From: Blastococcus sp. TBT05-19
Lineage (GTDB): Bacteria > Actinomycetota > Actinomycetes > Mycobacteriales > Geodermatophilaceae
Direction of reading: 5' to 3'
Assembly (NCBI RefSeq): GCF_003319095.1
Contig: NZ_QOHI01000008.1
Location: forward strand, 62,001 to 126,000
DNA length: 64,000 nucleotides
Below, one piece after another: positions 19,163 to 32,776 of this stretch. Positions within the stretch are counted from its first letter, which is position 1. Each line of letters starts with the position of its first letter. The notes under the pieces were generated by a model. The model worked only from the letters and a program-made list of their open reading frames with translations, was not told the origin of the DNA and ran no database searches. The position numbers and the translations under genes are program-made.

Positions 19163-20158
19163 TCAGACGACGGGGGTCCGGTCGTCGGCCCAGGTGATCC
19201 GCTCGTACCCGTACGCGCGGGCGACGTCGCGGACGGCACCGGCGATCTTCTCCGTCTCCGCGCGCAGCACGAACTCCCCGTCGATGACGTACACCGACAG
19301 CAGCGCCACCGGACCGCGGTGCACCCCGAGGTCCAGGGGCAGCTCCAGGCGAGCGCCGCCGAAGGTCCGGGTGATGAGGGTGCCGCCCCAGTCCAGCTCG
19401 CGGCCCGACTCGGAGGTCGCGTAGACCAGCACCCTGCGCAGGTCGCGCGACTGGTGCAGGTCGACGACCAGCTGCTCGAACTCCTCGCGGTCGGCGCGCA
19501 GCACCGGGGTCGGCGAACCGGGCGGGCCGGCGGCCAGCCCGCGGAGCCGCTCGACGATCGAGGACGTGCCGTCGGTCAGCTCGTACAGCGCGCCGAGGCT
19601 GACGTCGCCGACCGCCGGCGAGCAGACCGCCTCCACGGTCAGGGCGCCGATCCCGCTCTGCAGCCGGTTCAGGGTCACCGTCGGGTCCTGGGGCGTGAGG
19701 ATGACCCGACCGCCGGCAGCCAGCCGGGGCACCGGCCGCGCCGGCTGCTGCGCACGCCGCCGGCCGGCCGCCGGGGCGGGCGGCGCCGCGGCCGGCGCCT
19801 CGGGGAACAGGTCGAGCAGGCCAGCGGGCCCCGACGACGCGGGTGGCACCGGCTCGGACGGCGCCGACAGGTCCAGGCTCGGCGACGGCGTGGGTGCCGG
19901 AGCCGAGGGCGCCGACAGGTCCAGGCTCGAGGACGGCGCGGGCGGGGAGGGCGCCGGGGCCGGGGCCGACAGGTCGAGGTCGGCGCTCGGCGGCCGGACC
20001 GGCGCGGGGCTCGGGGCCGGAGCGGGAGCGGGAGCCGGAGGTGCGGGCGCGGTGGTCCGGCGCGCGGCCGACGACCCGGGCGCGGGCCGCAGGCTGCGGT
20101 GCCGGAGCCAGCCCAGGTCGGTGCGTCGGGGTGCGGTGGCGGGGTCGCGACCGCTCAC
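19163..20158 (-). CDS. TerA-like stress protein with Pro/Ala-rich linker and LDLSAP repeats
   Basis: The C-terminal ~180 residues resemble the TerA-type domain: VILTPQDPTVTLNR, then LGALYELTDGT, matching LGCLYEFTDGS in the TerA-like gene at 29 kb. The N-terminal ~150 residues are disordered Pro/Ala/Ser, with the motif LDLSAP at 61-66, 79-84 and 95-100 and LLDLFP near 114-119. Such short repeats in a linker look like docking motifs. The GTG start at 20158 overlaps the stop of the upstream terD gene (GTGA); the longer frame to 20347 is a shadow of terD. Part of the Ter island, probably cytoplasmic. Exact function unknown. Confidence 0.8.
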   Translation of the reverse strand: MSGRDPATAPRRTDLGWLRHRSLRPAPGSSAARRTTAPAPPAPAPAPAPSPAPVRPPSADLDLSAPAPAPSPPAPSSSLDLSAPSAPAPTPSPSLDLSAPSEPVPPASSGPAGLLDLFPEAPAAAPPAPAAGRRRAQQPARPVPRLAAGGRVILTPQDPTVTLNRLQSGIGALTVEAVCSPAVGDVSLGALYELTDGTSSIVERLRGLAAGPPGSPTPVLRADREEFEQLVVDLHQSRDLRRVLVYATSESGRELDWGGTLITRTFGGARLELPLDLGVHRGPVALLSVYVIDGEFVLRAETEKIAGAVRDVARAYGYERITWADDRTPVV

Positions 20159-20718
20159 AGCGGCAGGCCGTAGTCCGAGGCGACGCCGGCGATGCCGCTG
20201 GCGTAGCCCTCCCCCACGACCTTGAACTTCCAGTCGGAGCGGTGGCGGTACACCTCGCCCAGGACCAGCGCGGTCTCCGTGGACAGGGCCGGCGCCAGGT
20301 TCTCCGACCGCACCAGCTCGCGGTTGTCGGCCCCGTCGCGCACGCACACGCTCAGCTGCCGCAGCTGGCCCAGGGTGCGGCGGGCCGCCGTCCCCTCGTT
20401 GACGAACAGCACGAAGGCCACCCGGGACACCTCGGGCGGCACGTCGGGCAGGTCGATCTCCACCTGCTCCTGGTCCCCGGCGAGGGCGTGCTCCAGCCGG
20501 TGCACGGACAGGTCGGGCGAGGTGAGCTGGTTGACGAAGACGAAGTGCTCGGCGGAGAGCGCCTTGCTCGCGCTGTCGCAGAGGACCGCGGCCAGGACCA
20601 GGTTGTCCTGCAGCACCGGCTCGGCGTTCCCGTTCCAGGTCACCCCGACCACGACCTGCCTGAGCCCGGGGATCTCCCGGGTGAGGGGCACGTTGGCCCC
20701 GCGGCTCATGAGGGGCAT
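20155..20718 (-). CDS. TerD-family protein, divergent (degenerate Ca2+ site)
   Basis: TerD-fold protein of 187 residues. It begins MPLMSRGANVPLTR, equivalent to the [10 protein letters not shown] start of TerD proteins, and ends WKFKVVGEGYASGIAGVASDYGLPL, the typical TerD C-terminus. The two acidic clusters that bind calcium in canonical TerD (DLDASA and GDN..GDDE) read VLCDSAS and ALAGDQEQ here, so calcium binding is doubtful. It starts 14 bases after the gene at 20732 and overlaps the TerA-like gene downstream, forming a three-gene unit. A start at the internal Met (20709) is also possible. Confidence 0.88.
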   Translation of the reverse strand: MPLMSRGANVPLTREIPGLRQVVVGVTWNGNAEPVLQDNLVLAAVLCDSASKALSAEHFVFVNQLTSPDLSVHRLEHALAGDQEQVEIDLPDVPPEVSRVAFVLFVNEGTAARRTLGQLRQLSVCVRDGADNRELVRSENLAPALSTETALVLGEVYRHRSDWKFKVVGEGYASGIAGVASDYGLPL

Positions 20719-21281: not shown

Positions 21282-22505
21282 TCAGTTGCCGGCGATCTCG
21301 TTCTGACGGGTGCGCTCGAGGTAGGGCTTGGCCCGCTGGATCTGCCCCTCGAGCGCCTGGACGGTCTGGGCCATCGAATCGATCGCCTGCGCGCGGAAGG
21401 TGTCGACGGCGTCCATCGTCGCGAACACGTTGTCGAAGGCCGCCTGCAGCTTGGCGACGTCGACGGTCGAGGAGGCCGCCTGCTGGTTGATCGCCGTGCC
21501 CTGGATCCGCAGCTGCTCGGACGTCGACTCGATGAGGTTCGAGGTCACGGTGTTCAGCGCGGTGATCTGGTCGAGGACCAGCTTCTGCCGGCTGAGCGCC
21601 TGGGAGACCATCACCGCGGTCCGCAGGGCCGCGATCGTGGTCGTCTGCGCGCGGTCCACGCCCCGGATCAGCTCGAGGTTGTTGCGGCGGATCAGGTCGA
21701 GGGCCATGTAGCCCTGAACCGCGACCGCCATCTGGGTCATGATGTCCTGCCGCCGCTGGCGGACGGGGAACAGCGCGTCGGAGCGGACGGTGTTCGCGTC
21801 CTCGGTGCGCCCGGCGGCCTCGAGCTCGGCGACCTTGTTCTCCAGCGCGGAGTCGAGGGCCGCGGCGAGCTCGTTGTACTCCCGCAGCTTGCCCATCATC
21901 GACCACATGTTGGCCTTCTCGGTCTCGATGGCCGCGTTGTCCTTGCGCAGCTCGTCCTGACCGGAGTCCAGCGCCTTGATGATGGAGTTCAGGTGCGACT
22001 GGGCCGACTGGTACTTGGCGAAGTAGCGGTCGATCTTGTCCCCACCGGGCAGCCACTTGAGCACGCGCTTGACGCCGGTCAGGTCGGCCCGGTTCGGGTC
22101 CAGCTCGGTGACCGTCTGGCGGAGGTCGACCAGCGTGTTGGACACCTTCGTCTGGGCGTCGAGCTTGCCCTTGCCCATCGCCGCGGCGGGGCGGTCGAGC
22201 ATGCGGTTGGAGACGGCGGCCGAGGCCCGCATCTCGCGGTCGCCCAGCGTCGTGATGGAGCCGACCTTCTCCGAGAAGGCCGGCGACTTGGTGTCCAGCG
22301 ACACGAGGTCGCTGACGAAGGCGGTCGCCTTCGCCCGGAGCTCGGCCTGCTTGGCGTCCTCGATCGGCACCGCGTCGGCCGCCTGCTCGGTGGCCACGAC
22401 GACGACCGGCTGCGGCGGGGCCAGGACCAGGGCACCCGCCGTGGGGGCCGCACCGGTCGCCGCGGCGGACGGGGCGGAGGTGGAGCCGAGGTCCAGCTCG
22501 GACAT
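21282..22505 (-). CDS. telA: TelA-family toxic-anion resistance protein
   Basis: Member of the TelA/KlaA family linked to tellurite and other toxic-anion resistance and found with TerC/TerD. The 407-residue protein starts with a Pro/Ala-rich region of ~50 residues, then a long helical body: SFEKVGSITTLGDRE-like segment, LKWLPGGDKIDRYFAKY, LNSIIKALDSGQDELRKDN, and DALFPVRQRRQDIMTQM, hallmarks of TelA. Coiled-coil character is strong and no signal or membrane helix is seen. ATG 22505 has GAGGAG nine bases upstream; the extension to 22850 lacks family sequence. It is divergent from the lyase gene of the biosynthetic module. Confidence 0.92.
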   Translation of the reverse strand: MSELDLGSTSAPSAAATGAAPTAGALVLAPPQPVVVVATEQAADAVPIEDAKQAELRAKATAFVSDLVSLDTKSPAFSEKVGSITTLGDREMRASAAVSNRMLDRPAAAMGKGKLDAQTKVSNTLVDLRQTVTELDPNRADLTGVKRVLKWLPGGDKIDRYFAKYQSAQSHLNSIIKALDSGQDELRKDNAAIETEKANMWSMMGKLREYNELAAALDSALENKVAELEAAGRTEDANTVRSDALFPVRQRRQDIMTQMAVAVQGYMALDLIRRNNLELIRGVDRAQTTTIAALRTAVMVSQALSRQKLVLDQITALNTVTSNLIESTSEQLRIQGTAINQQAASSTVDVAKLQAAFDNVFATMDAVDTFRAQAIDSMAQTVQALEGQIQRAKPYLERTRQNEIAGN

Positions 22506-22887
22506 GGAGGTCACTCCTCGAAGACGCGTCGGTGCCGACCGGGTGCGGACCGGCCCGCCGGGGAGGCGGGAGACCGCGCCGGGCAGTCGGTTGCAGTCCG
22601 GGAGCATCCCGGCCCGCAGCCGTCTGTCTAACACGCGGCGGTCACGATTCGAACCCTTCGCGGGCAGGATACGGCGGGTGTCACGGCCGCCCGGGGCGTC
22701 GTCACCCGGTCGGTGCCGGGCCTCGACGCTGCCGGCCTCCCGGCCGTCGGAGGGAACCTGCACGCCGGCGACCCGGATCGGCCCGCCGGCCCCCGCCCGT
22801 AGTCTCCGTGCGGGCACCAGGCGGCGGAGGATCCGGCCGCCGTGCCGCACCGGCGACCGAACGCGTGCCGGACCGAGGGGAGGACGA
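22506..22887. promoter_or_regulatory. Divergent promoter region between telA and the Ter biosynthetic module
   Basis: A 382-base gap with no convincing gene. For telA (minus), TTCGAA at 22653-22648, a 16-base spacer and TTAGAC at 22631-22626 is a possible promoter. For the lyase gene (plus), TAGTCT at 22800-22805 is a possible -10 without a clear -35. Frames running through this region have no family sequence. Both units probably start here and may be co-regulated. Confidence 0.35.
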
Positions 22888-24051
22888 GTGCGTCATTTCG
22901 GGTTCCTGACACCGGAGCAGCGGGACTCGCTCTTCCAGCAGGCCCCGGGTTCGTTCGACGCGCGGACCGACCGGCGGACCCTCGCCGTCGCCCTGGGCGC
23001 GACCCTCTACACACCGGGCACCCGCCAGGACTACGCGGCCCGGATCGGGCAGCTGGTCCAGGAGGGCGTCGCCTCCGCCGTGCTGTGCCTCGAGGACGCG
23101 ATCCCCGACGACGACGTCTCCGACGGCGAGCGCAACGTCGTCGCCCAGCTGCGCACCCTGCACGAGAGCGGCCGGGAGACCCCCCAGCTCTTCGTCCGCG
23201 TCCGCCGTCCCGACCAGGTGCGGACCCTCGTCGGTGAGCTCGGACCGGCCGCCGCCGCGCTCACCGGCTTCGTCTTCCCGAAGTTCACCTCCGCGGTGGC
23301 GGAGGACTACCTGGCGGCGCTGACCGAGGCGCGGGCGCAGACGTCCCTGCCGCTGTACGCCATGCCGGTCCTGGAGACCGGCGAGGTGCTGTTCGCCGAG
23401 ACCCGGCTGCCGGAGCTGCTCCGCATCCGCGAGCTGCTGTCCGCCGCCGAGGACGCCGTGCTGGCCGTGCGCATCGGCGCCACCGACCTGTGCGGCCTGT
23501 ACGGGCTCCGCCGCGGGCCCGACCTCACGATCTGGGACCTCGCCCTGGTGCGCGAGGCGCTGGCCGACATCGTCAACGTCTTCGCCCGGGACGACCGCTT
23601 CACCGTGACCGGCGCCGTCTGGGAGCACTTCACCGGCACCGAGCGCCTCTTCAAGCCGCAGCTGCGCCAGACCCCGTTCGGGCGACCGGACCTCCCCGGG
23701 GCACCCGAGCTGCGGTACGACCTGATCCGGCACGACCTCGACGGGCTCATCCGGGAGGTCGTGCTGGACCAGGCGACCGGGATCGTCGGCAAGACGGTCA
23801 TCCACCCCTCGCACGTCCGGCCGGTGCACGCCCTCTCCGTCGTCACCTCCGACGAGCTGGAGGACGCGCGGACGACGCTCGGCATGACCGGCGGCGGGGT
23901 CTCCGGGAACGCCCGGGCCACCCGCATGATCGAGAGCCGGCCGCACGCCCGCTGGGCGGCCCGCACGATGCGCCGCGCCGAGGTGTTCGGCGCGCTCCGG
24001 GAGGACCGCACGTTCGTCGACCTGCTGCACGTCGACGAGGGTCAGGCGTGA
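22888..24051 (+). CDS. HpcH/HpaI aldolase / citrate lyase-like C-C lyase of the Ter module
   Basis: TIM-barrel enzyme of the citrate lyase beta/HpcH-HpaI superfamily, 387 residues. Seen are ASAVLCLEDAIPDDDV, with the acidic metal/substrate residues near 65-75, FVRVRRPDQV, GFVFPKFTSA and MPVLETGEV, then AVRIGATDLCGLYG. The C-terminal extension (KTVIHPSHVRPVHAL) is also typical. In Ter systems this lyase is predicted to help build a nucleoside-like metabolite; no CoA-lyase partner is nearby, so central metabolism is unlikely. GTG 22888 follows AGGGGAGG. The frame extends upstream to 22036 only as a shadow. The stop overlaps the next start (GTGA). Confidence 0.9.
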   Translation: MRHFGFLTPEQRDSLFQQAPGSFDARTDRRTLAVALGATLYTPGTRQDYAARIGQLVQEGVASAVLCLEDAIPDDDVSDGERNVVAQLRTLHESGRETPQLFVRVRRPDQVRTLVGELGPAAAALTGFVFPKFTSAVAEDYLAALTEARAQTSLPLYAMPVLETGEVLFAETRLPELLRIRELLSAAEDAVLAVRIGATDLCGLYGLRRGPDLTIWDLALVREALADIVNVFARDDRFTVTGAVWEHFTGTERLFKPQLRQTPFGRPDLPGAPELRYDLIRHDLDGLIREVVLDQATGIVGKTVIHPSHVRPVHALSVVTSDELEDARTTLGMTGGGVSGNARATRMIESRPHARWAARTMRRAEVFGALREDRTFVDLLHVDEGQA

Positions 24052-25319
24052 GCGGGACGACGAGCTGGGTCACCGCGGAGCTCGGCATCGGGCTCGACGT
24101 CGGGTCACCCCCGGGCAGCCGGGAGGCGGGGGCCGCGGTCCTGGACGGCGTCGAGCTCGGCCTGCGCCGCAACCCGCTGCGGGCGCAGCTCCTGGTCTCC
24201 CGGCTCCTCGGCAAGCACGTGCCCGCACCCGTGGCCGAGGTGCTGGGGACCGGCCACCTGCTGGGCGACCTGGTCCGCGACGCCTGTGCGGGCCGTACGC
24301 CGGTCGTCGTCGGCTTCGCCGAGACCGCCACCGCCCTCGGGCACGCGGTCGCCGCCGTCGCCGGCGCGGACGGGCACCAGGCCCCCTACCTGCACACGAC
24401 CCGACGACCCGCGCCGCGCGGCGCCCAGCTCGTCGAGTTCCGCGAGGAGCACAGCCACGCCACCCAGCAGGGCCTCGCGCTCCTGCCGGGCGGGCTCGCC
24501 GACGCCGCCCTGCACGCCGACGTCCCGCTGGTCCTGGTGGACGACGAGATCAGCACCGGCCGGACGGCGATCAACGCCATCCGCGCCCTGCACGCCGTCC
24601 GACCGCGCAGCCGCTACGTCGTCGCCAGCCTGCTGGACTCGCGGAGCGAGGAGCAGCACCGGGAGCTCGACCGGGTCGCCGCGGACATGGGCGCGTCGGT
24701 CGCCTCCGTCGCGCTCCTGACGGGGACCGTGCGCACCCCCCACGACGTCCTCGAGCGGGCGGCGGCACTGCTCGACCGGCTGCCCGACCCGCCCGCCCCG
24801 GGTGGCGCGCCCGTCCCCGTCACGCGGCGGACGCTGGTCCTGCCCGCCGGGCTCCCGACCCTCGCCGCGCACGGCTGGGACGCCGGCTGCGAGCGGCTGC
24901 TCTCCGACGCGGTCGGTGCCGCCGCCGGGTCGCTGCCCGTCCACCGGGACGCACGCACCCTCGTCCTCGGCGACGAGGAGTTCATGTACCTCCCCCAGCG
25001 GCTGGCCGCGGCCCTCGGCGGCGAGGTGCGCACGTCGACCACCACCCGGAGCCCGGCCGCCGTGGTCGACGTCCCTGGCTACCCGCTGCGCACCGTCCTC
25101 CGGTTCCCCGCCACGGAGGACCCGGGGCGCACCGCCTTCGCGTACAACGTCGCGCCCAGCGGCCGGCCCGATCCGGGGAACGCGCCCGGGTTCGACGACG
25201 TCGTGCTCGTCTCCGACGCACCGGAGGGCGGGCACACCGACGTGCTGCTCGGCCTGCTGGCGGCCAGCGCCCGGCGCTCGGTCCACCTCGTCCGGGTCCG
25301 CGCGGCGGGGGCGGCGTGA
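24048..25319 (+). CDS. Phosphoribosyltransferase with TRSP-type C-terminal domain
   Basis: Two-domain protein of 423 residues. The N-terminal half is a type I phosphoribosyltransferase: the PRPP loop LVLVDDEISTGRT at 161-173 is clear, with VVVGFAETATALG as the pyrophosphate loop near 87-98 and HTTRR downstream. The second half (from about 225) matches the TRSP domain that follows such PRTases in Ter operons, including GDEEFMYLPQRLAAALGG and LVSDAPEGGHTDVL. It is expected to attach or remove a ribose-phosphate on an unknown base-like compound. GTG 24048 overlaps the lyase stop, and its own stop overlaps the next gene, both by GTGA. Confidence 0.88.
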   Translation: MSGTTSWVTAELGIGLDVGSPPGSREAGAAVLDGVELGLRRNPLRAQLLVSRLLGKHVPAPVAEVLGTGHLLGDLVRDACAGRTPVVVGFAETATALGHAVAAVAGADGHQAPYLHTTRRPAPRGAQLVEFREEHSHATQQGLALLPGGLADAALHADVPLVLVDDEISTGRTAINAIRALHAVRPRSRYVVASLLDSRSEEQHRELDRVAADMGASVASVALLTGTVRTPHDVLERAAALLDRLPDPPAPGGAPVPVTRRTLVLPAGLPTLAAHGWDAGCERLLSDAVGAAAGSLPVHRDARTLVLGDEEFMYLPQRLAAALGGEVRTSTTTRSPAAVVDVPGYPLRTVLRFPATEDPGRTAFAYNVAPSGRPDPGNAPGFDDVVLVSDAPEGGHTDVLLGLLAASARRSVHLVRVRAAGAA

Positions 25320-26434
25320 CCGCCGCACACCTCGAGGGCCTGCGCAGCAGCTACGACCCGGCCGAGGTCACGTTCCTGCTGACCGATCTCTCCTCCGTGC
25401 GGCTGGAGCTCGACCTCGCCGAGCGCGAGGCCCGCATCCAGGCCGGCCGGAACTACGCCGAGATGCTGCCGGTCGAGTACCGCCCGGACCAGGCCTACCT
25501 CGAGCTCTTCGAGTCGGTGCTCGCCGACTCCGCCGCGGAGATCGCCGAGCACGTCGGCGTCGTCACCGAGATGGCGCTCGCCGCCCGCGGCGGCCGACCG
25601 GTGCTGGTCTCCCTCGCCCGCGCCGGGACGCCCGTCGGCATCCTCATGCGCCGCTGGGCGCAGCGAGCGCACGGCGTGGCCCTGCCGCACTACTCGGTGA
25701 GCATCGTCCGCGGGCGGGGCATCGACACCGTCGCGCTGGACGCCGTCGTGGCCCGGCACGACCCGGAGGACGTCGTCTTCGTCGACGGGTGGACGGGCAA
25801 GGGCGCCATCGTCACCGAGCTGCACTCCGCGCTCGACGCCTACGAGGCCGACGGCGGACCGCGGCTGCCGCGCGACCTCGCCGTCGTGGCCGATCCCGGC
25901 CACTGCGCCACCCTCTACGGCACCCGGGAGGACGTGCTCGTGCCCTCGGCCTGCCTGAACGCGACCGTCTGCGGGCTGGTCAGCCGCACGGTGCTCAACG
26001 ACGAGCTGATCGGGCCGGGCATGTTCCACGGCGCGAAGGTCTACCGCGAGCTCGCCGACGAGGACCGCTCCGCGCACTTCCTGGACACCGTCAGCCGGCG
26101 GTTCGACGAGGTCACCCCGGCCGTGCAGGCGCGGTGGCGGGCCGAGTACGCCGCCGACCGGGCACCGACCTTCCTCGGCCTCGACGTCGTCCGGCGGCTG
26201 CAGGCCGAGTTCGGGCTGCCGAGCTGGCACCTGGTGAAGCCCAGCGTCGGCGAGACGACCCGCGTGCTGCTGCGCCGGCTGCCGTGGCAGGTGCTCGTGC
26301 GCCCCGACCGGCGGGACGCCCTCCGGCACGTGCTGCTGCTCGCCGAGGCCCGCGGCGTGCCGGTCGTCGACCACCCGGACATGCCCTACAGCTGCGTCGG
26401 GCTCGTGCAGCCGCTCGCCGGAGCGGACTCGTGA
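25316..26434 (+). CDS. StiP-like phosphoribosyltransferase with PELOTA-type RNA-binding C-terminus
   Basis: A 372-residue protein of the family often named cysteine protease StiP. Evidence for a phosphoribosyltransferase fold: VLVSLARAGTPVGIL near 96-110 and the PRPP-type loop VVFVDGWTGKGA near 153-164. The C-terminal ~80 residues (LLRRLPWQVLVRPDRRDAL, LLLAEARGVPVVDH, YSCVGLVQPL) resemble PELOTA/L7Ae-type RNA-binding domains. The strand NYAEMLPVEYRP is family-specific. It is coupled on both sides by GTGA overlaps. Family literature treats it as a second PRTase of the Ter metabolite pathway; protease activity seems unlikely from this sequence. Confidence 0.88.
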   Translation: MTAAHLEGLRSSYDPAEVTFLLTDLSSVRLELDLAEREARIQAGRNYAEMLPVEYRPDQAYLELFESVLADSAAEIAEHVGVVTEMALAARGGRPVLVSLARAGTPVGILMRRWAQRAHGVALPHYSVSIVRGRGIDTVALDAVVARHDPEDVVFVDGWTGKGAIVTELHSALDAYEADGGPRLPRDLAVVADPGHCATLYGTREDVLVPSACLNATVCGLVSRTVLNDELIGPGMFHGAKVYRELADEDRSAHFLDTVSRRFDEVTPAVQARWRAEYAADRAPTFLGLDVVRRLQAEFGLPSWHLVKPSVGETTRVLLRRLPWQVLVRPDRRDALRHVLLLAEARGVPVVDHPDMPYSCVGLVQPLAGADS

Positions 26435-27276
26435 GCGGCCCCGTGCTGGTGAGCACCGATCTCGACCGCACGCTGATCTTCAGCCCGCGGGCCACCGAGC
26501 TGCTCGGCGGAGGGCTGCCCCGCTCGGTCGTCGAGGTGCACGAGGGGCGGGTCATCAGCGAGATGGCCGACGTCGTGCGGGACGGGCTGGCCGAGCTCGC
26601 CCGGTTCCCGGCAGCCGTCACGGTGGTGCCGACGACGACCCGCACCGTGCGTCAGCTGCAGCGCATCGACCTCCCGTTCACCCCGCGGTTCAGCATCGCG
26701 GCATCGGGTGGCGTGGTGCTGGAGCACGGCCGCGTCGACGAGGCCTGGTCCCGGGACACCGCGGCCCGGCTGGCCCGGTGCGCGCCGGTCGCCGAGGTGC
26801 GGGTTGTCCTCGACGGGCTGGTGGAGGCCGGCGTCGTGCTGCGGGCCCACACCGCCGAGGACATGTTCTGCTACGGGATCGTCGACCCTGCCCGCTTCGG
26901 CCCCGAGGAGGTCGAGCGGCTCACCGCCCAGATGCTCCCCCGCTCCTGGCGGGTGGCCCACCAGGGCACGAAGGTCTACGCGCTGCCCGACGCGCTGCAC
27001 AAGGCGCACGCCATCGCCCACGTCCGGGACCGGCTGGCCGCGGAGGCGGGCGACGTCCCCGCCCTCCTGGCCGCCGGCGACACCTGGCTGGACGCCGAGA
27101 TGCTCGAGCTGGCCGACCGCGGCTGGGTGCCGGCGGGCAGCGAGATCTCCCGGTCCGGGCCGCCGCCCTGGCCGCGCGTGACCCTCACCGCCTCCGCCGG
27201 TCACGCGGCGGCCGCCGAGATCGTCGCCGCCTGGCACGAGGCCGTGCTGGGTGCCGGCGAGCAGGCCCGCTCCTGA
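26431..27276 (+). CDS. HAD-superfamily phosphatase of the Ter module
   Basis: Haloacid dehalogenase-fold phosphatase, 281 residues. Motif I is STDLDRTLIFS, with nucleophile D10 and acid D12. Motif II is VVPTTTR near residue 68-74, motif III the Lys in GTKVYALP, and motif IV AAGDTWLDAEML with acidic residues. A C2-type cap lies between (SIAASGGVVLEHG region). It likely removes a phosphate from the product of the two PRTases. Last gene in a four-gene run with GTGA overlaps at each junction (24048, 25316, 26431). The GTG start overlaps the previous stop. Confidence 0.88.
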   Translation: MSGPVLVSTDLDRTLIFSPRATELLGGGLPRSVVEVHEGRVISEMADVVRDGLAELARFPAAVTVVPTTTRTVRQLQRIDLPFTPRFSIAASGGVVLEHGRVDEAWSRDTAARLARCAPVAEVRVVLDGLVEAGVVLRAHTAEDMFCYGIVDPARFGPEEVERLTAQMLPRSWRVAHQGTKVYALPDALHKAHAIAHVRDRLAAEAGDVPALLAAGDTWLDAEMLELADRGWVPAGSEISRSGPPPWPRVTLTASAGHAAAAEIVAAWHEAVLGAGEQARS

Positions 27277-27304
27277 GGTCCGCGGCGCTGGCAGGATGCC
27301 CGGC

Positions 27305-28708
27305 ATGACGACGATGTCCAAGGGCGCCAACCTCCCGGTGACCGCAGCGCGGGTCCGCGCCACGCTCGGCTGGTCCTCGACCGTCGAGGTGGACGCCTCG
27401 GCGCTGCTCCTGACCGACCGCGGCAAGGTGCGGTCCGACGCCGACTTCGTCTTCTACAACCAGCCCCGCAGCGCCGAGGGCAGCGTGCGGCACACCGGGG
27501 CGTCGGGGGCCGCCTCCGGGCAGGACTCGGTCGAGGTGGACCTGACCGACCTGCCCGCGGCCATCGAGAAGGTCGCCGTCGCGGCCAGCGTCGGTGACGG
27601 CACCTTCGGCCAGATCCCCGGCCTGCACCTGCGCCTGACCGACGCGGCCGACGGCGCGGAGATCGCGCGGTTCGACATCTCCGACGCCACCACCGAGACG
27701 GCCTTCGTCTTCGGCGAGCTCTACCGTCGCAACGGCCAGTGGAAGTTCCGCGCCGTCGGTCAGGGCTACGCCTCGGGCCTCGGCGGGCTGGCCACCGACT
27801 TCGGCATCGACGTGGCCGAGGAGCCCGCCGCGGCCGCTCCCCCGGCGGCTCCCCCGCAGCCGGCGACCCCCGCCGTCTCGCTGAAGAAGCAGAAGCAGAT
27901 CTCGCTGGAGAAGCGGGCCGCCGCCGAGGCGCCCCAGCTGGTCGACCTGGTGAAGAAGGCCGCGGTCAGCCTGGAGAAGAAGGGCCTGGGCGAGCACACG
28001 GCCCGGGTCGCGCTGTGCCTGGACATCAGCGGGTCGATGGCCAACCTCTACCGGTCCGGCAAGATCCAGCAGCTCGCCGAGCGCATCCTGGCCCTGGGCC
28101 TGCGGTTCGACGACGACGGCGAGGTCGACGTCTTCCTGTTCGGGACCAACGGCCACCAGGCGGACTCGATGAACCTGGGCAACGTCCGGCAGTACACCGG
28201 CGACCTGCTCCGGCTGCACCCGCTCGAGGGCAGCACCTACTACGGCTCGGCCATGCGGCTCATCCGCCGCCACTACTTCGGCTCCGACGAGCGCCGCACC
28301 AGCCCGCACCAGGACCGCGTCCCGGTGTACGTCATGTTCGTCACCGACGGCGCCACCTTCGACGAGGACGTGACCCGCGAGCAGGTGCGGTCCTCGAGCT
28401 ACGAGCCGCTGTTCTGGCAGTTCATGGCGATCGGGAAGTCGTCCCGGTCGCTGGGCCTGGGCGGGGGCGGCGGCCGCCGGCGCGGGTTCTTCGGCGGCGG
28501 CGGGGGCCCTGCGCCCGGCACCTCCCGGGAGTTCCGCTTCCTCGAGGAGCTGGACGACATGAGCGGCCGGTTCATCGACAACGCCGACTTCTTCAGCGTC
28601 GACGACCCGATGCAGCTCAGCGACGACGAGCTGTTCGACCTGCTCATGACCGAGTACCCCGGGTGGCTCACCCGGGCGCGCGAGCGGGGGCTGCTCCCGC
28701 AGCGCTGA
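27305..28708 (+). CDS. TerD-VWA fusion protein (TerF-like)
   Basis: Fusion of an N-terminal TerD domain (1-170) and a C-terminal von Willebrand A domain. The MIDAS motif is CLDISGSM (D240, S242, S244), with TDGATF later and a Gly-rich loop [18 protein letters not shown] near 385-400. The linker (175-235) is Pro/Ala-rich then Lys-rich, with [13 protein letters not shown] and VSLEKKG. The TerD calcium clusters are eroded (EVDASA kept, [10 protein letters not shown] replaces the second). ATG 27305 was chosen by family start; CAGGAT seven bases upstream suggests a leaderless promoter. It follows the HAD gene by 28 bases. VWA proteins usually bind metal-dependent protein ligands. Confidence 0.92.
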
Positions 28709-29530: not shown

Positions 29531-30712
29531 TCAGACCTTCTGGTGCTCGTCGGCGCCGACGTGGATCGCGTGCGCCTCCGGCGGGTCCTTCTTCAGCCGC
29601 CGCAGCGAGCCGGCGAAGGCCACACCGATGAAGGCGACACCGATCAGGCCCGTGATCAGCTCCGGGATGTGCCACTGCAGGCTGAGCAGCAGGATGGCCG
29701 CCAGGGCGCCGATGGCCCAGTGCGCACCGTGCTCCAGGTACACGTACTCGTTCAGCGTGCCCTGGCGGACCAGGTAGACGGTGATCGACCGGACGAACAT
29801 CGCCCCGATCAGGCCCAGGCCCAGCGCGATGATGATCGGGTCCGAGGTGATGGCGAAGGCGCCGATCACGCCGTCGAAGCTGAACGACGCGTCCAGGACC
29901 TCGAGGTACAGGAAGAGGAAGAACCCGGCCTTGCCGGTGGCCCGCGCGAGGGTCGTGGGTCCACCGGTGCGCGCCGGCGCCGCGGCGTTGGCAGTGGCGA
30001 CGTCGTCGGCCTTGCCCTGCTCGCCGTGCACGACCCCGGCGGTCGACTCGCTGTCCTCCTCGTCGATCTGGGCGTTCTCGAAGAGCGACCCGAGCCCGTT
30101 CACGGCGAGGTAGGTGACCAGACCGAGGACACCGGAGAGGAGCACCGACTCGCGCTCCTCCCCCTCCACCAGGAACTCGGCGGCGAGGACCAGCAGCACC
30201 AGCGAGATGATCACCGACAGGGCGTCGAGCTTGCCGATGCGGGCCAGCGGGCGCTCGATCCAGGTCAGCCAGGTGATGTCGCGCTCCTCGAACAGCCAGT
30301 CGAGGAAGAGCATCAGCAGGAAGAGGCCACCGAAGGAGGCGATCAGCGGGTGCGCCTCGTTGAGCAGGTAGCCGTAGGTACCCGGCTCCTCCGGGTCGCC
30401 CTTCTCCATCGCCAGCTGGAGCGCCTCGACCGGCCCGAGGTTGGCGGTGATGCCGACGATCAGCAGCGGGAAGACCAGGCGCATGCCGAAGACGGCGATG
30501 AGGATGCCGATGGTCAGGAAGATCTTCTGCCAGAAGTCGCTCATCCGCTCGAGCACCTTGGCGTTCACGACGGCGTTGTCGAACGAGAGGGAGACTTCGA
30601 GGACGCCGAGGATCGCGCAGAGCGCCAGGGCTTCCCAGCTGCCGTAGATGAACGCCACGACGAGGCTGGCGATGGTGACCCCGATGGACCACCCGAACGT
30701 TCGCAGAAACAC
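29531..30712 (-). CDS. DUF475 family integral membrane protein (TerC superfamily)
   Basis: Polytopic membrane protein of 393 residues with about 8-9 hydrophobic segments. It starts VFLRTFGWSIGVTIAS, the DUF475 N-terminus. Two pseudo-symmetric acidic motifs in membrane helices, VSLSFDNAVVN and ASFSFDGVIGAF, resemble the metal-binding motifs of TerC. A hydrophilic loop of about 45 residues (ENAQIDEEDSES to RTGGPTT) separates the halves. GTG 30712 has AAGGA upstream and matches the family start; the track extends further without family sequence. Predicted inner-membrane ion transporter or exporter acting with TerC and TerD proteins; substrate not shown. Confidence 0.9.
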   Translation of the reverse strand: MFLRTFGWSIGVTIASLVVAFIYGSWEALALCAILGVLEVSLSFDNAVVNAKVLERMSDFWQKIFLTIGILIAVFGMRLVFPLLIVGITANLGPVEALQLAMEKGDPEEPGTYGYLLNEAHPLIASFGGLFLLMLFLDWLFEERDITWLTWIERPLARIGKLDALSVIISLVLLVLAAEFLVEGEERESVLLSGVLGLVTYLAVNGLGSLFENAQIDEEDSESTAGVVHGEQGKADDVATANAAAPARTGGPTTLARATGKAGFFLFLYLEVLDASFSFDGVIGAFAITSDPIIIALGLGLIGAMFVRSITVYLVRQGTLNEYVYLEHGAHWAIGALAAILLLSLQWHIPELITGLIGVAFIGVAFAGSLRRLKKDPPEAHAIHVGADEHQKV

Positions 30713-30730
30713 GTGATTCCTTGAGTCATG

Positions 30731-30748
30731 GGCAGCCGGACGGCTGCC
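30731..30748 (-). terminator. Short hairpin between terD and the DUF475 gene
   Basis: GGCAGCC pairs with GGCTGCC around a GGAC loop, between the terD stop at 30789 and the DUF475 start at 30712. It could be a weak terminator or an intercistronic stability hairpin; it ends 18 bases before the start codon. Confidence 0.4.
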
Positions 30749-30788
30749 AGGGGTGCGCGAGATGCCGGGGACTGGCTGCCCCGGCCGA

Positions 30789-31367
30789 TCAGCTGACGTT
30801 GACGCCGAAGTCCTGGGCGATGCCGCGCAGACCGGAGGCGTACCCCTGGCCGACGGCACGGAACTTCCACTCGCCGTTGTTGCGGTAGAGCTCGCCGAAG
30901 ACCATGGCGGTCTCGGTGGAGGCGTCCTCGGACAGGTCGTAGCGGGCGATCTCCGCCCCACCGGCCTGGTCGACGACGCGGATGAAGGCGTTCCGCACCT
31001 GACCGAAGTTCTGGTTCCGCTGGTCGGCCTCGTAGATGCTCACCGGGAAGACGATCTTGTCCACCTCGGCGGGCACGGCCTGCAGGTCCACCTTGACGAC
31101 CTCGTCGTCGCCCTCGCCCTCACCGGTCAGGTTGTCGCCGGTGTGCTCGACGGAGCCGTCGGGGCTGGTCAGGTTGTTGAAGAAGACGAAGTGCGAGTCC
31201 GAGAGGATCTTGCCGTCGGCGCCCAGCATGAGGGCGGACGCGTCGAGGTCGAAGTCGGCGCCGCTGGTCGAGCGCACGTCCCAGCCGAGGCCGATCAGGG
31301 CCGCCGTCATGCTCGGCGCCTGCTTGGTCAGCGAGACGTTGCCGCCCTTGGTCAGACTGACGCCCAC
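30789..31367 (-). CDS. terD: TerD family protein, canonical
   Basis: Calcium-binding TerD protein of 192 residues. The start [15 protein letters not shown] is canonical. Both acidic clusters are intact: [11 protein letters not shown] near residues 38-48 and [15 protein letters not shown] near 76-90. The end reads [26 protein letters not shown]. TerD proteins act in tellurite and oxidative or envelope stress. It is highly similar to the gene at 31524 (shared [19 protein letters not shown] and [10 protein letters not shown]), so the two are a tandem duplicate. A strong terminator precedes it, so it has its own promoter in the ~90 bases upstream. Confidence 0.95.
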
Positions 31368-31523: not shown

Positions 31524-32108
31524 TCAGCCGACGTTGACGCCGAAGTCCTGCGCGATGCCCTTGAGGCCGGAGGCGTAGCCCTGGCCGACGGCGCGGAACT
31601 TCCACTCGGCGCCGTTGCGGTAGAGCTCGCCGAAGACCATGGCGGTCTCGGTGGAGGCGTCCTCGGAGAGGTCGTAGCGGGCCAGCTCCTCGGTGTTGGC
31701 CTGGTTCACCACGCGGATGAAGGCGTTGCGCACCTGGCCGAAGTTCTGGTTCCGCTGGTCGGCCTCGTAGATGCTCACCGGGAAGACGATCTTGTCGACC
31801 TCCGCGGGGACGTTGCCGAGGGTGACCGAGATCTGCTCGTCGTCGCCCGCACCCTCGCCGGTGAGGTTGTCGCCGGTGTGCTCGACGGCGTTCTCGGGGC
31901 TCTTGAGGTTGCCGTAGAAGATGAAGTGCTGGTCGGACAGCACCTTGCCGTCGGCCTTGACCAGGAGCGCCGAGGCGTCCAGGTCGAACTCGGTGCCGGT
32001 CGTGGTGCGGACGTCCCAGCCCAGACCGACGGTGACGGCGGACAGACCGGCGGAGCCGGCCTGCTTGGTGAGGGAGACGTTGCCGCCCTTGCTGAGGCTG
32101 ACGCTCAC
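31524..32108 (-). CDS. terD: TerD family protein, canonical, tandem copy
   Basis: Second canonical TerD, 194 residues. It reads [16 protein letters not shown] at the start, [11 protein letters not shown] and [15 protein letters not shown] for the calcium clusters, and ends [18 protein letters not shown]. Its GTG at 32108 has GGAGG six bases upstream and is better than the frame's earlier start at 32180. Compared with the 30789 copy, the C-terminal two thirds is nearly identical while the stretch at residues 10-75 differs more. It lies between two terminator hairpins and is likely transcribed alone. Confidence 0.95.
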
Positions 32109-32167
32109 TGTTCCTCCAGTTCCTGCGGGCTGGTCGCCCGGATGTCTGTCTCGAAGTCGAACGCTCT

Positions 32168-32194
32168 GACCGGCGGGCACCGTTCCCGCCGGTC
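32168..32194 (-). terminator. Terminator between terD genes
   Basis: GACCGGCGGG at 32168-32177 pairs perfectly with CCCGCCGGTC at 32185-32194 with a 7-base loop. It lies directly beyond the stop of the terD gene at 32198. Confidence 0.6.
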
Positions 32195-32197
32195 GGC

Positions 32198-32776
32198 TCA
32201 GAGGTGCTGGCTGACGGCCGGCATCAGGTCCTGGAACGTCCGGCCGTTCGCGATGGCGCCGATGGCGGTCATGCTCCAGCCGCTGCCGGCGCGCGAGACC
32301 TTCGCCATCACCTGGCTGTTGTGCGTGCCCGAGCCGGTGAGCTCGTAGCGGGCCAGCTCGGTGTCGTTCGCCGTGGTGTCGACCAGCCGGCAGAAGGCGT
32401 TCTCGATCTGGCTGAAGTTCTCGCCGGTGAAGGAGTTCACGACGAAGACGATCTGCGTGATGCTGCTGGGCACCGACTGCAGGTCCACGACGATCGACTC
32501 GTCGTCGCCCTCGCCGGCGCCGGTCCGGTTGTCACCGGTGTGCTGCACGGAGCCGTCCTTGCTGCGGAGCTGCTGGAACCAGGCCTGGTCGACCAGCCGC
32601 CCGCCGGCGTCGAAGAGCAGGGCCGAGGCGTCGAGGTCCACGGACTGGTCCTTGAGCTTGCCGAACATGCCCTTCTTCTTGATCGCATCCCAGCCCAGGC
32701 CCATGCGGACGCGGGTCAGGGTGCCGCCGCCCCGCTTCTCCAGCGAGACGGTCTGACCCTTGCTGAGACTCACCAC
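32198..32776 (-). CDS. TerD family protein, divergent subtype
   Basis: TerD-fold protein of 192 residues that differs from the tandem pair. It starts [18 protein letters not shown]. It has an insert [12 protein letters not shown] before [11 protein letters not shown], and keeps [16 protein letters not shown], so both calcium clusters look intact. The C-terminus ([20 protein letters not shown]) departs from the [12 protein letters not shown] pattern. Two in-frame GTG codons (32776 and 32773) could start it; GGGGAG lies six or nine bases upstream respectively. It follows terC across a 180-base gap and is followed by a terminator. Confidence 0.9.

Follow-up and report, generated by a model that had tools for sequence, protein, structure and literature searches.

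A four-gene Ter biosynthetic module without a linked ATP-grasp gene in Blastococcus sp. TBT05-19

A stretch of 64,000 nucleotides from Blastococcus sp. TBT05-19 (contig NZ_QOHI01000008.1, positions 62,001 to 126,000 of the forward strand), referred to here as the window, carries a four-gene Ter biosynthetic module at 22888-27276 on the + strand. A C-C bond lyase, PRTase_2-TRSP, StiP-PELOTA and a HAD phosphatase are encoded in that order. Taken jointly, it is rather probable that this is a complete, ordinary actinobacterial Ter module, inherited as a block with TerD, TelA, TerF-vWA and DUF475 genes, and that it makes a nucleoside-like small molecule used as a signal or ligand by the TerD/TelA/vWA machinery; the substrates, reaction order, product and use are what we infer. 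The coordinates and gene calls of the first-pass annotation, made from the letters alone, agreed with the open reading frames (ORFs) and the Pfam matches. The four genes are listed below (aa, amino acids).

22888 to 24051, + strand: C-C bond lyase, related to the CitE/malyl-CoA lyase group; 387 aa; PF15617, 358 bits
24048 to 25319, + strand: PRTase_2 with C-terminal TRSP, putative first phosphoribosyltransferase (PRTase); 423 aa; PF15609, 192 bits, and PF12500, 96 bits
25316 to 26434, + strand: StiP PRTase-fold protein with C-terminal PELOTA (L7Ae-like), putative second PRTase; 372 aa; PF11202, 337 bits, and PF15608, 102 bits
26431 to 27276, + strand: HAD phosphatase of the family of PDB entries 6d3v, 6d3w and 6cj0; 281 aa; assigned by family profile against PDB

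The four genes overlap by four bases (GTGA) at all three junctions (24048, 25316 and 26431). Gene order was compared in 80 named loci, which were the best 80 of 589 relatives among the matches listed and were Streptomyces-heavy. All four genes stood in the window's order in 73 of the 80; six of the others were truncated by contig ends (2-246 bases of room on the left) and one, Catellatospora locus L011, lacked the lyase. Since 73 loci keep the order and six of the remaining seven are cut by contig ends, the arrangement is not a matter of chance, and the tight coupling proposed in the first-pass annotation held. Its assignment of the genes to the Ter system was also upheld by Pfam, with PRTase_2-TRSP, StiP-PELOTA, HAD and lyase genes found together and linked to TerD, TerC, TelA and vWA genes. 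An ordinary citrate lyase or orotate PRTase identity, or a set that is not conserved in relatives, was not borne out by Pfam, NCBIfam or the 80 loci.

PRTase_2-TRSP and StiP-PELOTA formed one reading frame in 62 of the 80 named loci, were separate in 16 and were cut in 2; the count is approximate, as some separate cases (e.g., L022) resemble frame breaks and the fused L064, L087 and L089 end at a contig edge. A StiP tree of 113 sequences, built by a quick method, with several long branches, duplicate rows L129 and L131 dropped and rows with short StiP matches excluded, held 73 fused, 38 separate and 2 unscored sequences. At least nine changes of state were required, at least five of them forced by starred branches. 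Because the fused or split state has changed repeatedly, PRTase_2 and StiP likely act together. BLAST between the two PRTases of the window gave no significant similarity.

Type I PRTases usually carry two adjacent acidic residues in the 5-phosphoribosyl-1-pyrophosphate (PRPP) loop. PRTase_2 has such a pair in D165 and D166, followed by E167, and D165, D166, E167, G171 and T173 were invariant in 18 of 18 sequences. The predicted model of PRTase_2, with a predicted local distance difference test (pLDDT) value of 88.6, matched APRT/XPRT best in the PDB, and PyrR was among its top sequence matches. For StiP, the predicted model (pLDDT 91.2) matched PyrR best and then HGPRT, with modest template modelling (TM) scores of 0.44-0.56 by target for the PyrR matches within the top 11. 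The StiP loop D-G-W-(T)-G-K-G was invariant in 23 of 23 sequences, with T in 22. PF11202 is listed as PRTase_1 in the available excerpt of PMC13109261. The Pfam title of StiP, a cysteine protease, was rejected. No cysteine was invariant in the 23 sequences, the best columns holding Cys in 21, 20 and 19 of 23, and no protease was found among the 50 PDB matches listed for the StiP model, which included some weak matches to selenocysteine lyase or cysteine desulfurase; the title is thus unsupported, because of the missing invariant Cys and the PRTase-like predicted fold. A search for PF15610 (PRTase_3) gave no match in the window's genome, and none in the control genomes either.

PyrR ranks at the top both in the sequence matches of PRTase_2 and in the structural matches of StiP, whose loop is altered. 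Both PRTase-fold proteins could therefore be sensors of PRPP or nucleotides, like PyrR or PurR, and make nothing. This is very unlikely, because the PRPP-type loop of PRTase_2 is intact and invariant, and because both proteins are strictly coupled with a phosphatase, joined by a lyase in most loci.

PyrR is a PRTase-fold RNA-binding regulator, and Rit1 ribosylates a tRNA using PRPP. A different role for the module would be the modification of RNA, in which PELOTA holds the RNA, the PRTases add phosphoribose and the HAD enzyme dephosphorylates, with no free metabolite. PyrR as the best fold match of StiP is consistent with this, as are the 102-bit PELOTA match on StiP and the weak profile matches of its PELOTA part to L7Ae ribosomal proteins (best E 0.031). 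However, the C-C lyase here and the ATP-grasp enzymes of other phyla suit a small-molecule pathway better, and a relative of the HAD protein was assayed as a small sugar-phosphate phosphatase, according to the excerpted source. We regard RNA modification as unlikely, and a free nucleoside-like product is preferred.

The HAD protein showed no Pfam match at E<=0.01. Its family profile matched the HAD phosphatases 6d3v, 6d3w and 6cj0, named trehalose phosphatase, with a best E of 4.7e-74. T69, R71, K191, G216, D217 and D221 were invariant in 15 sequences, and D10, D12 and T14 nearly so. The family motifs DxDxT, TxR, K and GDxxxD are thus kept, although the annotated start of the L004 protein removes the first of them. 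The HAD protein of the Ter module on a Pseudomonas aeruginosa plasmid (L008) was near-identical to the three PDB entries (535 bits over 251 residues), and its only cysteines lie at positions 85 and 231. The extra-chromosomal trehalose-6-phosphate phosphatase of P. aeruginosa also has cysteines at 85 and 231, and an apparent Ki of 2.1 uM is given for the inhibition of its phosphatase activity (PMC6838324, in an excerpt that names no substrate). The near-identity of the L008 protein to solved entries and the same cysteine positions make it very probable that a protein of the Ter phosphatase family has already been produced and assayed, and that a structure has been solved for it or for a near-identical protein. 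Among the open-licence papers listed, none joined this P. aeruginosa phosphatase to Ter.

The name of these entries, and the cysteine positions shared by the L008 protein and the P. aeruginosa enzyme, raise the question of whether the product is sugar-like rather than nucleoside-like, with trehalose-6-phosphate, a ribosyl-sugar phosphate or another phosphate of the disaccharide type as the substrate of the HAD enzyme. Promiscuity is common among HAD phosphatases. Moreover, the HAD protein of the window is only 26% identical to that of L008, and the two PRTases indicate phosphoribosyl chemistry. A sugar-like product is accordingly considered improbable compared with a nucleoside-like one.

The lyase family profile matched citrate, malyl-CoA and acyl-CoA lyases in the PDB (best E 2.8e-13), and E69, D70, R104, R106, E163, R195, D200, K302 and H306 were invariant in 17 of 17 sequences. 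An ordinary citrate lyase was rejected because the NCBIfam scores were far under the cut-offs, at 31 bits for RipC (cut-off 375) and 15 bits for citE (cut-off 443). The first-pass annotation had the lyase build the molecule, but this step seems dispensable. The genome of L011 gave only generic lyase matches, the best at 33 bits, and no module-type lyase was found there or on the whole record of Acinetobacter phage vB_AbaM_ME3, so the lyase was rejected as an essential step and is not strictly defining for a Ter module. PRTase_2, StiP and HAD seem to make up the minimal core, as they occur without the lyase in phage ME3 and in L011. Relatives were found in three phage records, two of which are the same phage, and in three contigs of a viral contig collection.

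In line with the first-pass annotation, a Pfam scan of the window genes lying between 15 and 39 kb gave no ATP-grasp, and none was found on the window's contig in a whole-genome PF15632 search. Its view of this absence as a peculiarity did not hold, because actinobacterial loci were generally without a Ter-type ATP-grasp gene. In blastp with two Ter ATP-grasp queries, matches were found in 2 of 110 sources, equal to the number of query plasmids; the 110 included the 80 named loci, almost all of them actinobacterial. This search may overlook distant ATP-grasps, because at E 1e-4 it left the PF15632 gene of the window genome unmarked, though that gene scored 42 bits in another search. A survey of the neighbours of the named loci gave 23 clusters present in at least six loci, of which 6 were labelled as module, Ter or L004 query genes and 17 were unassigned; no ATP-grasp was found among the 10 of these 17 that were scanned with Pfam. 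The ATP-grasp-free state thus seems to be the normal actinobacterial form, as far as the searches reach.

Plasmids gave the opposite picture. PLSDB held 2567 records with StiP and 2498 with a Ter ATP-grasp, and the StiP/ATP-grasp counts were 1052/1050 in Klebsiella, 439/439 in Escherichia, 364/364 in Enterobacter, 350/350 in Salmonella and 130/130 in Pseudomonas. Rhizobium, with 41 StiP records, was outside the top ten ATP-grasp genera, the tenth of which had 7. These are genus totals rather than record-by-record comparisons, and the queries and E limits differed. The viral contig L169 (7898-13372) carries lyase, PRTase_2, StiP and HAD genes as in the window and then a divergent ATP-grasp gene (26% identity to the plasmid queries), and is an intermediate between the ATP-grasp-bearing and ATP-grasp-free forms of the module. 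On an Azospirillum ramasamyi plasmid (L143), a short annotated ATP-grasp gene of the Ter locus is followed by insertion sequences, and no other module gene is annotated.

The first-pass annotation had also suggested that another ligase elsewhere might fill in, which would leave the pathway as in enterobacteria. The window genome has one PF15632 match above the cut-off (63 bits, contig C7) and two below it (27 and 16 bits). The 63-bit gene lies between an exosortase-like protein and a UDP-GlcNAc 2-epimerase, in a polysaccharide-type locus. PF15632 was matched in all 14 control genomes, above the cut-off in 12, so it is not a specific sign; with its polysaccharide-type locus in this genome and unrelated neighbours in two relatives, it was rejected as a mark of a Ter ligase. 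Against a profile of two plasmid ATP-grasps, the best protein of the window genome reached 21.9 bits and was not taken as Ter-type. The plasmid profile at E<=1e-5 gave partial matches of at most 60 bits in 24 of 112 family genomes, genus-mates included and the window genome not among them. In the genus-mate G017, the neighbours of the ATP-grasp-like gene were a response regulator with a PIG-L domain, a PHP-like protein (just under the cut-off) and a glycosyltransferase.

At E<=1e-8, the plasmid profile matched 10 of 396 phylum genomes. Three matches were partial (37-45 bits) and in genomes without a StiP match; seven were near full length (75-91 bits) and belonged to one genus, probably Streptomyces. 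All seven genomes were StiP-positive, which favours an unlinked ligase, and the gene was either 3.9 Mb or more away from StiP or on a different contig. In 199 genomes of this genus, StiP was present in 195 and the ATP-grasp in 78, that is, in 76 of 195 StiP-positive and 2 of 4 StiP-negative genomes. The stand-alone ATP-grasp therefore shows no association with StiP in probable Streptomyces, with little power from four negatives. At most 5 (396 genomes) or 9 (199 genomes) candidates per genome were scored in these searches, which may inflate the number of absences. In the single neighbourhood that was scanned, the stand-alone gene adjoins a metallophosphatase and a phosphopantetheinyl transferase. 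With this context, that of the 63-bit gene and the StiP counts against it, replacement by an unlinked ligase is decidedly improbable, and the complete module without ATP-grasp is the preferred reading.

The genes around the module are as follows.

20155 to 20718, - strand: TerD-domain protein; PF02342
20732 to 21220, - strand: small gene (162 aa) between telA and terD; no Pfam match
21282 to 22514, - strand: TelA, divergent from the module; PF05816, 295 bits on the longer ORF 21282-22850; start by codon composition
27296 to 28708, + strand: TerD-vWA (TerF-like) protein; PF02342 and PF10138 on ORF 27251-28708; start by codon composition
29531 to 30712, - strand: DUF475 membrane protein (TerC-related); PF04332, 433 bits on ORF 29531-30961; start by codon composition
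30789 to 31367, - strand: TerD; PF02342, 295 bits
31524 to 32108, - strand: TerD; PF02342, 280 bits on ORF 31524-32180; start by codon composition
32198 to 32776, - strand: TerD-domain protein at the far end of the presence/absence block; PF02342
32957 to 33967, - strand: TerC, retained in relatives lacking the module; PF03741

The flank of uvrB was compared in 13 genomes of the genus, namely the window genome and 12 of 22 genus-mates, with the module-bearing G002 left out. In 11 of 11 module-lacking genus-mates, uvrB, terC and an S9 peptidase gene were found without a Ter block between them. In the window and in G017, TerD genes, DUF475, TerF-vWA, HAD, StiP, PRTase_2, lyase, TelA, the small gene and TerD lie between terC and the peptidase gene. 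TerC adjoins uvrB in 12 of 12 genus-mate flanks. At the uvrB site, the module and the TerD, TelA and TerF genes are thus present or absent together while terC stays, a statement that holds for this site only. Among 112 family genomes, lyase (>300 bits) and StiP were found in the identical 31, at distances of 1329-1539 bases; these include 3 of the 23 genomes of the window's genus.

Some further features of these loci were observed. A second TerC-like gene (50-55% identity) sits beside the conserved terC in 8 of the 11 module-lacking genus-mates, where the Ter block would sit (L177, L178, L183, L184, L185, L186, L187 and L188). The 162-aa gene is also present in the TelA-bearing loci L010, L011 and L054 and in G017. 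A gene of about 400 aa without a Pfam match, coiled-coil-like by eye (L004, 8251-9441, and relatives), was found in 60 of the 80 named loci and not in the window. The StiP nearest to that of the window among the named loci (68-70% identity) is in L010, together with TelA and TerD, on a contig filed as Candidatus Melainabacteria, which may be misbinned actinobacterial DNA.

In the proposed pathway, the C-C lyase would supply or trim an acyl or carboxylate precursor. PRTase_2 would then attach PRPP-derived phosphoribose to a base-like acceptor, a step suggested by its intact PRPP-type loop. StiP, with the PRTase fold and an altered loop, would perform a second ribosyl-phosphate step on the intermediate of PRTase_2, which would account for the frequent fusion of both into a single polypeptide. 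The phosphate would finally be taken off by the HAD enzyme. An ATP-grasp step would not be required in the actinobacterial lineage, whereas in enterobacteria and Pseudomonas an ATP-grasp enzyme probably decorates the product. The order of ribosylation and then dephosphorylation, put forward in the first-pass annotation, is plausible on this basis, with the chemistry inferred. A nucleoside-derived Ter product is also a published prediction (PMC7824862, PMC5512222 and PMC8115787, in the excerpts available).

Several points weigh against this pathway. In the Klebsiella study, E. coli became tellurite-resistant with terZ-F alone (PMC8115787, as excerpted); the module is therefore dispensable for that phenotype in this setting, and any phenotypic role of it is putative. 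The StiP loop V-D-G-W-T-G-K-G has a single acidic residue and departs from the two-residue pattern of PRTases, although the predicted fold fits. As one of the two usual acidic residues is missing, and with the modest TM-scores in the PDB, StiP may bind rather than catalyse. For the studied relative of the HAD enzyme, both name and assay are those of a trehalose-6-phosphate phosphatase rather than a nucleotidase, in the source as excerpted. Finally, a generic ATP-grasp elsewhere in the window genome, where PF15632 gave one match above and two below the cut-off, may still take part.

A bolder version departs further from the published prediction. The Ter metabolite would be neither a plain nucleoside nor dependent on ATP-grasp, and the PRTases, fused in many actinobacteria, would be one channelled enzyme making a doubly ribosylated or ribosyl-sugar phosphate. 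The "trehalose-6-phosphate phosphatases" of Ter plasmids would be its final phosphatase, and the PRTase-PRTase-HAD trio would be a stand-alone signal maker, also in phages such as ME3. We hold this version to be rather unlikely, and a nucleoside-like product remains our choice.

The product of the Ter pathway is a long-standing question, met in print, in the excerpts available, as a prediction or as a citation of one. Three or four proteins are enough for the actinobacterial form, and many relatives have two of these naturally fused, which makes it a small testable system. Its phosphatase family already has a crystal structure and an assay under a different name, and the presence or absence of the block at a single chromosomal site in close relatives offers natural pairs for metabolomics.

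This kind of module is already known, and what is added here is the PRTase fusion, the co-inheritance as a block and the phosphatase link. The Ter modules of enterobacterial and Pseudomonas plasmids (L005 and L008; the putative biosynthetic cluster of Klebsiella in the excerpted PMC8115787) also have lyase, PRTase_2-TRSP, StiP-PELOTA and HAD genes, beside TerD, TerC and TerB. L005 and L008 have ATP-grasp and a different gene order, whereas the window has neither ATP-grasp nor TerB among its scanned genes and has TelA and DUF475. The P. aeruginosa trehalose-6-phosphate phosphatase (6d3v, 6d3w and 6cj0) belongs to the HAD family of the fourth gene of the window, but is named for trehalose metabolism. 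The Ter operon of phage vB_AbaM_ME3 (L007 and L171), noted in the excerpt of PMC7824862, shares PRTase_2, HAD and StiP with the window, along with TerD, vWA and DUF475-like genes. The phage has no lyase on its whole record and no ATP-grasp match in the searched stretch, whereas the window has a lyase. Among actinobacterial Ter loci, the Prescottella plasmid p1-WH99 (L004), Geodermatophilus obscurus (L036) and Streptomyces (L016) have the four genes of the window in the same order, with no ATP-grasp found; the PRTases are fused in L016 and are encoded by separate genes in the window.

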